A stretch of 64,000 nt of DNA, taken from Natrononativus amylolyticus. Its GTDB lineage: Archaea; Halobacteriota; Halobacteria; Halobacteriales; Natrialbaceae. The position numbers were made by a program, and so were the translations under genes. The stretch is from NCBI RefSeq assembly GCF_024362525.1, contig NZ_CP101458.1, positions 2,108,001-2,172,000 of the forward strand. Direction: 5' to 3'. Below, piece by piece: positions 52,220-55,927 of this stretch (position 1 is the first letter of the stretch; each line of letters opens with the position of its first letter). Below the pieces are notes generated by a model, which searched no databases, had not been told where the DNA came from, and worked only from the letters and a program-made list of their open reading frames with translations.

Positions 52220-53287
52220 TTACTCGAGGCGGTAGCGCAACAGCGCCGCGATCCCGCCGAGGTTCGAAAGCTGCTGGCCGGGCGGGAACTCGCTCGAGAA
52301 CACCGTCACCTCGCCGCCCTTCTGTTCGGCCGTTCGTACCACGTCGTCGACGTCGATCGCCCACTCGCCGTCGGGGCCGCGCTCCTGGCGGAGCCGGTCG
52401 TCGACGATCAGCAGGCGCTCGATCGCGCCGTACTCGGCCGCCTTTTTAACCTCCTCGGGACCGTAGGCCGCTTTGGCGCCCTCCGCGATCCGTTTCGTGA
52501 GTTCGTCGATATCGGCCGCCTCGCTCTCGATTCGGGTCTCCTGCTGGACGTCCGCCACGGCCCCCCGTTTCAGGACCTCGTGGACTCCCCGGTCGCCCAC
52601 GCCAGCGGTGTCGACCATCGTGATCAGGTCGGCGACCTCGGGTTCGTTCTTCTCGAGGTACTTCCTGGCGTCCTGTTTCGTAAAGCCCGGTCCGGCGAGG
52701 ATGATCGCGTCGACGTCCATCCGCTGTAGCACTTTGCCGAGCTCGGCGAACAGCTCCGAACGGTCGCGGGCGTACTCGCCTTTCCCCGTCGGCCCCGAGA
52801 TCGTCGCCCGCTCTTCGGTGCCGTACTGGGCGACCGTGTGGACGAACGCCTGGCCCTCCTCGACGGTGGCGATGGCGACGTCGGGGTTCTCCGTCGACGC
52901 CTCTGCCTCCTCGAGGCGGGCCTCCTGATCCGGCTTGAACCGCTTGTCGATCGAGAGCTCCTCGCGCTCTTCGATGTTGAGGGTGTGGTGAAAGCCGAGT
53001 TGATCCTCGCGTGAACAGGCCACGATCTCGCCGCCGACGCGCAGGCGGTTGGCGAACTTGTGGAACTCGATCGTGTCGACGGCGATGGCGACCCACATGT
53101 GCTCGCGCTCGCCGCCCGTATCCCGCATCTGCTCGTCGTTGCGCTGGATCCGGCGGGTCGTGTCGCCCGCGACGCGGTCCCCGGGCTCGAGGACGTACTG
53201 GAGGTGCCAGAGGTCGTCCAGACTCTCGGGGACGAGCGTTACCCGCTCGCGCCCGCCCTCGAGCGGCTCCCGGCTTTTGATCTGCAT
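52220..53287 (-). CDS. pelA: Pelota, mRNA surveillance and ribosome rescue factor
   Basis: Archaeal Pelota (355 aa), an eRF1-like protein that enters the empty A site of stalled ribosomes and with aEF1A and ABCE1 releases them. The order is an Sm-like N-terminal domain (about 1-130), a central domain (about 131-255) lacking the GGQ motif, and a C-terminal eRF1-like domain ([20 protein letters not shown]). Full length. ATG 53287 starts MQIKSREPL; the upstream in-frame start at 53314 is less likely. Divergent from the DUF4870 gene. Confidence 0.96.
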
Positions 53288-54191: not shown

Positions 54192-54365
54192 GGCCGCCGG
54201 GGTAGGACTGACGCAGGCAGGTGCAGCCTCGAGTCCGCTGGTCGACGGAGCCTGCCAGATCGACGGCCCGGGCAGCGCGACTCGGCGGCGTGAATCGGTG
54301 GCGCGGCCCGGCGGAGAGGTCGCCTATCAGGCCCCCAATCTATCCGTGCTGCGGTCAGTCGCCTA

Positions 54366-54389
54366 TATTTAACTAGATGGTTAAATATT
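54366..54389. promoter_or_regulatory. Operator 1 of the ArsR-like gene (over the TATA box)
   Basis: ATATTTAAC (54366-54374) and GTTAAATAT (54381-54389) form a perfect 9-bp inverted repeat around TAGATG. The right arm coincides with the presumed TATA region 23-31 nt before the ATG at 54412, so a bound repressor would block TBP. Confidence 0.65.
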
Positions 54390-54404
54390 AGGGTGGCGTA
54401 TACT

Positions 54405-54420
54405 CAACCGGATGGTTGAA
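54405..54420. promoter_or_regulatory. Operator 2 of the ArsR-like gene (over the start codon)
   Basis: TCAACC (54405-54410) and GGTTGA (54415-54420) form a perfect 6-bp inverted repeat with a 4-bp centre. The ATG at 54412-54414 lies inside it. It shares T-AAC--GATGGTT-AA with operator 1 and its centre is 35 bp further downstream. Confidence 0.65.
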
Positions 54421-54750
54421 CGACAGGCGAACGAGCCGGATCTCGACGCGATCTTCGGAGCGCTGGCCCACCCGACGCGACGGGCGCTGCTCGAACAGTT
54501 GGCCGCCGGCCCCGCGAGCGTCGGCGACCTCGCAGACCCCCACGACGTCTCGCTGGCGGCGGTGTCGAAGCACTTGCAGGTACTCGAGGACGCAGGACTC
54601 ATCGAGGTCGAGAAGGACGGGCGGGTACGACGATGTCACCTCGAGGCCGCGCCGCTTTCGGCCGCCTTCGGCTGGCTGACCCGGTACCGCGTCTTCTGGG
54701 AGGACCGGCTCGACGCGTTGGCCATCCACCTGGAGAACGAAGACCAATGA
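54412..54750 (+). CDS. ArsR-family winged-helix regulator
   Basis: Regulator of 112 aa with an ArsR-type winged helix: FGALAHPTRRALLEQLAAGPASVGDLAD, then VSLAAVSKHLQVLEDAGLIEVEKDGR. No metal-binding cysteines are present, so it probably senses a small molecule or acts as a switch like other ArsR-SRPBCC pairs. Two palindromes overlap its TATA box and start codon, indicating autorepression. The end overlaps the SRPBCC gene as ATGA. Confidence 0.92.
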   Translation: MVERQANEPDLDAIFGALAHPTRRALLEQLAAGPASVGDLADPHDVSLAAVSKHLQVLEDAGLIEVEKDGRVRRCHLEAAPLSAAFGWLTRYRVFWEDRLDALAIHLENEDQ

Positions 54751-55235
54751 CCGCAGACGAAACGGAAACCACAGAGTTCGACCCGAGCGATTACGACATG
54801 ACCATCACGCGGACGTTCGACGCGCCACGCGAGCGCGTGTTCGAAGCCTGGACCGACCCCGACCGGGTCGAGCAGTGGTGGGGACCGGCAGGCTTCACGA
54901 GCACGGTCCACGAACTGGAGGTCCGCCCCGGCGGCGCCTTCCGCCTCGACATGCACGCCCCCGACGGCACCGTCTACCCCGACAGCGGCGAGTTCCACGA
55001 GGTCGAGCCACCCGAGCGACTCGTCCTGACCAGCCGTGCGTTCGAGGACGAGGACGGAGCCTACGGACTCGAGGTGTACAACACCGTCACCTTCGCCGAG
55101 CGCGGCGGGAGAACGGAGCTAACCCTCGAGGCGGAGGTCATCGCGGCGAGGCCGGAGGTGGCCGAGGCGCTCGAGGGAATGGAGCTGGGCTGGAGTCAGA
55201 GCCTCGAGAAGCTCGACGATACCGTCGCTGCCTGA
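54747..55235 (+). CDS. SRPBCC/AHSA1-domain protein
   Basis: Protein of 162 aa with the helix-grip START-like fold of the AHSA1 family: DYDMTITRTFDAPRERVFEAW, then WWGPAGFTS and VRPGGAFRLDMHAPDGT. It binds hydrophobic ligands or assists proteins in other organisms. In bacteria ArsR-SRPBCC pairs form common two-gene cassettes; the same pairing is seen here, with a 4-bp overlap to the regulator. Confidence 0.9.
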   Translation: MTADETETTEFDPSDYDMTITRTFDAPRERVFEAWTDPDRVEQWWGPAGFTSTVHELEVRPGGAFRLDMHAPDGTVYPDSGEFHEVEPPERLVLTSRAFEDEDGAYGLEVYNTVTFAERGGRTELTLEAEVIAARPEVAEALEGMELGWSQSLEKLDDTVAA

Positions 55236-55261: not shown

Positions 55262-55927
55262 ATGACCAACGAAACTACCAACGGGCGGACGACTGGGAGC
55301 GTCGTCGCGGAGATCTCGACCTCCCTCGACGGCTTCGTCGCCGGGCCGAACGACGGCCCCGAGAACGCCCTCGGCGACGGCGGCGAGCGGCTCCACGAGT
55401 GGGTCTACGAGCTTTCGAGCTGGCGCGCACAGCACGGCCTCGAGGGTGGCACGACGAACGAGACCGACGAACGCCTCGCCGAGTCGGTCGAGAACACCGG
55501 CGCGGTCGTCATGGGCCGCCGGATGTTCAGCAACGAGGACGGGCCGTGGGGCGACGAGCCGTTCGAGGGCCACTGGGGCGACGAGCCACCGTTCGGCGTG
55601 CCGGTGTTCGTCCTCACCCACCACCCCCGCGAGCCCCTCGAGCTGGGCGGGACGACGTTCACCTTCGTGACCGAAGGCGTAGACGACGCCCTCGAGCGAG
55701 CGCGCGAAGCTGCGGGTGAGAAGGACATCTCGATCGCTGGCGGCGCGAGTACGATTCGGCAGTGCCTTCGGACGGGGCTGCTCGACGAACTCCGGATCCA
55801 CCTCGTGCCGGTGCTGCTCGGCGACGGGATTCGGCTGTTCGATCGGAGCGGAGACCGGATCGAACTCGAGCGCACGAGGGTGAGCGAGTCGGACGGCGTG
55901 ACGCACCTCGAGTTTCGTCCCGCATAG
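55262..55927 (+). CDS. Dihydrofolate reductase-like (RibD C-terminal) protein
   Basis: Protein of 221 aa of the RibD C-terminal/DHFR-like family: EISTSLDGFVAGPNDGP at the start, AVVMGRRMF in the middle and IAGGASTIRQCLRTGLLDELRIHLVPVLLG at the end. These residues form the NADPH-binding fold of a reductase, but folate activity is not established. It follows the SRPBCC gene by 26 bp, so the three genes are probably one operon controlled by the ArsR regulator. Confidence 0.9.
   Translation: MTNETTNGRTTGSVVAEISTSLDGFVAGPNDGPENALGDGGERLHEWVYELSSWRAQHGLEGGTTNETDERLAESVENTGAVVMGRRMFSNEDGPWGDEPFEGHWGDEPPFGVPVFVLTHHPREPLELGGTTFTFVTEGVDDALERAREAAGEKDISIAGGASTIRQCLRTGLLDELRIHLVPVLLGDGIRLFDRSGDRIELERTRVSESDGVTHLEFRPA

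Follow-up and report, generated by a model that had tools for sequence, protein, structure and literature searches.

Two palindromes stand at the start of an arsR-type gene, one in the TATA region and one across the start codon, and they raise the question of whether they are paired operators through which the encoded protein represses its own operon. The window (the whole 64 kb stretch of DNA analysed) contains the features collected in Table 1. A first-pass annotation had placed two palindromes with a shared pattern, 35 bp apart, at 54361-54425; this range is correct, both palindromes are present, and the distance between their centres is exactly 35 bp. Their common form is YAAC-N6-GTTR, and apart from operators 1 and 2 the shared pattern TNAACNNGATGGTTNAA has no other occurrence in the 3.99 Mb genome. 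Operator 1 has perfect arms, ATATTTAAC and GTTAAATAT, at 54365-54373 and 54380-54388, while in operator 2 of the window the outermost pair is mismatched. The second palindrome had also been described as enclosing the arsR ATG (54412), and its centre does fall exactly on the -1/+1 boundary, between base -1 and the A.

Table 1. Features of the arsR cassette and its surroundings (window coordinates).
Feature	Position	Strand	Remarks
Archaeal Pelota-like gene (eRF1 domains)	52220-53287	-	Flanks the cassette
Operator 1 (predicted)	54368..54385	.	TTTAACTAGATGGTTAAA; palindrome centre 54376.5; right arm runs into TATA box
TATA box	54381..54387	+	TTAAATA; about -31 to -25 from ATG; common to right arm of operator 1
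Operator 2 (predicted)	54403..54420	.	CTCAACCGGATGGTTGAA; palindrome centre 54411.5; right arm = codons 1-3
ArsR-type winged-helix autoregulator (predicted)	54412..54750	+	112 aa; Pfam HTH_20/HTH_5, NCBIfam NF033788, PDB 3f6o
SRPBCC/AHSA1 (COG3832-type) protein	54747..55235	+	Pfam AHSA1, E 1.9e-35; start overlaps arsR stop (ATGA)
RibD C-terminal (DHFR-like) protein	55262..55927	+	Pfam RibD_C, E 2e-16; probable third operon gene
NFACT/RqcH-like gene	56548-about 58700	-	Flanks the cassette

Very probably, as judged from sequence, both palindromes are operators of a non-metal ArsR autorepressor that would block TBP/TFB and RNA polymerase together. Bound to operator 1, an ArsR dimer would occupy the BRE/TATA region and deny access to TBP/TFB; another, bound to operator 2, would lie across the transcription start, which would coincide with the start codon, so that loading or escape of RNA polymerase would be blocked. 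ArsR would thus silence the operon to which it belongs (arsR, SRPBCC and linked genes) until released by a signal, probably not a metal.

Palindromy alone is weak evidence for such a scheme, because seven pairs of comparable palindromes 34-36 bp apart occur in the 64 kb window. A start-codon palindrome with at least 6 of 7 matching pairs is found at one of the 109 window ORFs examined (ATG-started, at least 100 aa), and this one is arsR. In the window alone the pair could almost be chance; the decisive evidence is comparative conservation.

Conservation and promoter geometry

Haloarchaeal homologues, sought by protein similarity and not by motif, are present in 25 of the 125 family genomes and in 31 of the 292 class genomes; within the family there are up to three copies per genome. 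After a distant homologue (L034) and a truncated copy (L045) had been left out, 53 loci were usable. The first-pass annotation had proposed a search for the double palindrome before related arsR-SRPBCC units. A pair of AAC-N6-GTT-type sites is kept in 51 of 53 homologues, with a spacing of 35 bp in 41 of them and of 36 bp in the other 10. In the 53-locus alignment, conserved DNA is limited to about -46 to -25 and -15 to +9, and the upstream flank is near background. L034, which has 43% identity, does not have the operator arrangement.

The alignment also agrees with the claim that operator 1 lies over the TATA region, TTAAATA at -31 to -25 falling within its right arm. The TATA columns are nearly invariant (TAA at -30 to -28 in 100%, TA at -26/-25 in 93-95%). 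This is the place expected for a haloarchaeal transcript starting at the ATG, and we therefore infer a leaderless start for arsR, as had been proposed. In keeping with this, there is no other conserved upstream promoter element in the haloarchaeal alignment; no Shine-Dalgarno sequence was seen before the arsR ATG. Leaderless transcripts make up 72% of the protein-coding transcripts of Haloferax volcanii (PMC4983044). The 35/36 bp spacing is best explained by how far the start site lies from the TATA box, and not by the helical repeat of DNA; helical phasing was rejected as a cause, as 35 and 36 bp are not whole turns (35 bp is ~3.3 turns).

An alternative explanation is that the start-codon site is the one true operator, with repression solely at the transcription start, and that the upstream site is mainly a palindrome-like BRE/TATA element. 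The right arm of the upstream site coincides with the TATA box and would be kept in any case, and bacterial relatives mostly have a single start-codon site: among the 31 bacterial loci described below, a second upstream copy occurs in 8, its distance varying over 35-52 bp where haloarchaea have a fixed 35/36 bp. However, the left arm (TTYAAC, at -44 to -39) shows 95-100% conservation at all bases but the Y, and corresponds to no known promoter element. In locus L183 (genome G225; 59% identity, helix SLSAISQH) the site at the TATA position has switched to TTTAAGC...GCTTAAG, both arms having changed together to a new half-site, and the start codon region reads ATGCTTAAG. Furthermore, operator 2 is poorly palindromic in L039, L041 and L033, yet operator 1 is intact or near-perfect in the first two of these. 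These observations make a start-codon operator on its own unlikely. A copy of the start-codon site is found upstream in 42 of the 53 haloarchaeal loci, and none in the control window; in L027 the upstream site is degraded. Judging by the homologues with a degenerate operator 2, both operators may not always be needed.

At the start codon itself, 46 of the 53 arsR genes have a palindrome of at least 5 of 7 pairs, as against none of 47 adjoining SRPBCC genes. Codon 2 is GTT in 50 of the 52 cases where it encodes valine, versus 13% GTT elsewhere in the same genes (nominal p about 1e-41, uncorrected for relatedness). Selection thus apparently acts on the DNA as well as on the protein at operator 2, the first coding bases seemingly being held fixed by DNA binding; the left arm is outside the gene. 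Covariation between the arms of operator 2 is marginal within haloarchaea alone, with 190 of 5000 shuffles as good. The conserved bases could instead act on RNA, as start-codon context or as a 5'-end structure controlling leaderless translation. The right arm of operator 2 is indeed coding and begins at the ATG, and GTT GAA could favour leaderless initiation. This is nevertheless a very improbable explanation: the left arm of operator 2 and all of operator 1 are upstream of the presumed start and hence would be untranscribed, the SRPBCC starts in the same loci have no such palindrome, and the half-site follows the DNA-recognition helix, as described next.

The predicted regulator and its recognition helix

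The encoded protein belongs to the ArsR/SmtB family (HTH_20 60.8 bits, cut-off 27; HTH_5 43.6, cut-off 22; NF033788 79, cut-off 55) and is a relative of PDB 3f6o (E 3e-24). It does not qualify as an SdpR autorepressor, scoring 56.3 bits with NF033789 where at least 100 are required. A canonical cysteine metal-ligand motif such as CxC is absent from the window ArsR, which has a single Cys; exactly one cysteine is present in 50 of the 53 homologues and none in the other three. As there is no metal-ligand motif, metal sensing was rejected, and the arsenic connotation of "arsR-type" does not apply. The lone cysteine lies in the wing (GRVRRC in the window, generally GRVRxC). Nearly all haloarchaeal homologues keep it, but among the bacterial ones about half lack cysteine altogether. 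It is a possible thiol sensor.

The recognition helix of the window ArsR is SLAAVSKH. Across bacteria and archaea, the half-site tracks this helix: SFAAVQKH goes with TACAACC, S[LF]xAVSKH with TTYAACC/T and TLTGMKKH with CTGAACC, while among ALPSF-type helices, ALPSFTQH is found with TTAGGT and ALPSFMKH with TTAGCC. As the half-site changes with the helix, the encoded ArsR is the likely binder, and it likely binds both of the palindromes directly upstream of and within its own gene. The view that the two sites are operators for one regulator is thus favoured both by the conservation of the pair and by this correspondence. L183 is a natural specificity variant (half-site TTAAGC), useful for testing the helix/half-site code.

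In the host genome, enrichment of the motif beyond the two operators was not found (28 matches with at most two mismatches, 27 for a reversed control), and the matches with at most one mismatch are operators 1 and 2 plus one other only. A wider regulon in the host was rejected for this lack of enrichment, and control by the operator pair looks local rather than genome-wide. It is also highly unlikely that a different, genome-wide regulator binds the palindromes while ArsR acts elsewhere, for although ArsR binding is a prediction, the genome has no further enriched sites, the two sites accompany this arsR in copies that are sporadic and lie at different locations, they change along with its recognition helix, and the relative Rv2034 binds the promoter of its own gene (PMC3338718). 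Each of these three alternatives is less likely than autorepression by ArsR from both palindromes.

Bacterial relatives and known systems

A tblastn search in plasmids gave 12 loci, 11 of them bacterial, and a scan of the genomes of 84,980 species added 80 more bacterial loci, which are biased to SL/SF-type helices by the narrower search alignment. A palindrome centred exactly on the start codon occurs in 31 of these 91 bacterial relatives (26 of 80 scanned, 5 of 11 from plasmids), for example TTCAACCAT|ATGGTTGAA in Chroococcidiopsis. As these 31 were selected by their palindromes, they establish that the class is present in several phyla but give no measure of how common it is. In their consensus, TTG at -37 and TAnnnT at -14 form a sigma-70 promoter positioned for transcription from the ATG. 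When only loci with a RAC-N6-GTT core are considered, the three outer pairs match in 124 cases versus a shuffled expectation of 78, a value reached in 0 of 5000 shuffles. Other bacterial loci have the site ahead of the start codon, by about 12-20 bp. Some actinobacterial homologues (L109, L125, L127, L133 and L154) carry, in addition to the TACAACC operator, a second good palindrome within the coding sequence, ACMGGGC-N4-GCCCTGT, close to codon 10.

These comparisons suggest a portable self-shut-off circuit that has been fitted to two different transcription machineries. The chances are about even that the start-codon-centred operator is an old common trait of the arsR-SRPBCC module, which would have moved between domains together with its operator, unrelated promoters (-35/-10 in bacteria, BRE/TATA in haloarchaea) being rebuilt around it in such a way that transcription always begins on the operator, and the second operator, at the TATA box, being fixed later in haloarchaea.

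The closest experimental parallel in our comparison is Rv2034 of Mycobacterium tuberculosis, a dimeric autorepressor that binds a palindrome with a 4-bp spacer near its start codon, does not respond to the metals tested and is linked to the SRPBCC-type gene Rv2035 (PMC3338718). The window locus likewise encodes a small ArsR winged-helix protein, overlaps an SRPBCC-type gene and has a conserved palindrome near its own start codon, whose operator role is predicted from sequence. In contrast, Rv2034 has a single operator, CCGTAAGT-N4-ACTTACGG (footprint about -30 to +3), which precedes the start codon and belongs to a bacterial promoter with no TATA-box site, and Rv2034 is reported to act on further genes (PMC3338718). 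Archaeal repressors commonly block recruitment of TBP/TFB or of polymerase (reviewed in PMC5569661), as the bacterial-type regulators MDR1, Lrs14, LrpA, Phr and TrmB do. The same is predicted here, with the difference that both points are apparently covered, by two operator copies at a fixed 35/36 bp, one of them in the first codons of the regulator.

Autoregulation by ArsR proteins, palindromic operators and archaeal promoter occlusion are already known, while the double operator placement and its cross-domain conservation appear undescribed: in the literature searched, the coverage of which is incomplete, no description was found of operators paired at TATA box and start codon, or of an operator centred on the start codon in both bacteria and archaea. 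The locus offers a concrete, testable case of a bacterial-type repressor on an archaeal promoter, with operators at TATA box and start site tied by promoter geometry. It also yields a code that relates recognition helix to half-site in a large regulator family of two domains about which little is understood. Its tight, local two-site design could serve haloarchaeal genetics as a repressible promoter.

The operon and its surroundings

The same 4-bp ATGA overlap of arsR and SRPBCC genes is found in 47 of the 53 homologous loci, which supports the earlier proposal of co-regulation for the SRPBCC gene. It is less general for the DHFR-like gene, which starts 26 bp past the SRPBCC gene and is found in some homologous loci only. 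In L016, L023, L038, L043 and L180, the gene after arsR is a tandem fusion of two SRPBCC domains, about 300-330 aa long (the two domains were read by eye in L016 and L043, and the others were judged by length).

With arsR directly followed by an AHSA1/SRPBCC gene, the cassette is an ArsR-COG3832 two-gene module. Such modules are described by Makarova et al. 2009 (PMC2701414), in the portion of that survey considered here, as patchy, with several copies per genome and with ArsR proteins devoid of a metal motif; a role in antibiotic resistance or of toxin-antitoxin type is suggested there, and the function is left open. The window locus shares the gene pair and the missing metal motif, and its family has the same patchy spread and multiple copies, as seen in the genome counts given above. 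The survey deals with gene association only, and in that portion describes no operators, start-codon placement or promoter logic.

In the relatives G119 and G021, the NFACT and Pelota genes lie within about 1 kb of each other with no cassette, and homologues of the arsR cassette elsewhere sit at other genomic places. Both observations are in line with the patchy spread of ArsR-COG3832 modules described in the same part of the survey (PMC2701414). The two genes that flank the cassette, Pelota-like and NFACT/RqcH-like, are both ribosome rescue genes.
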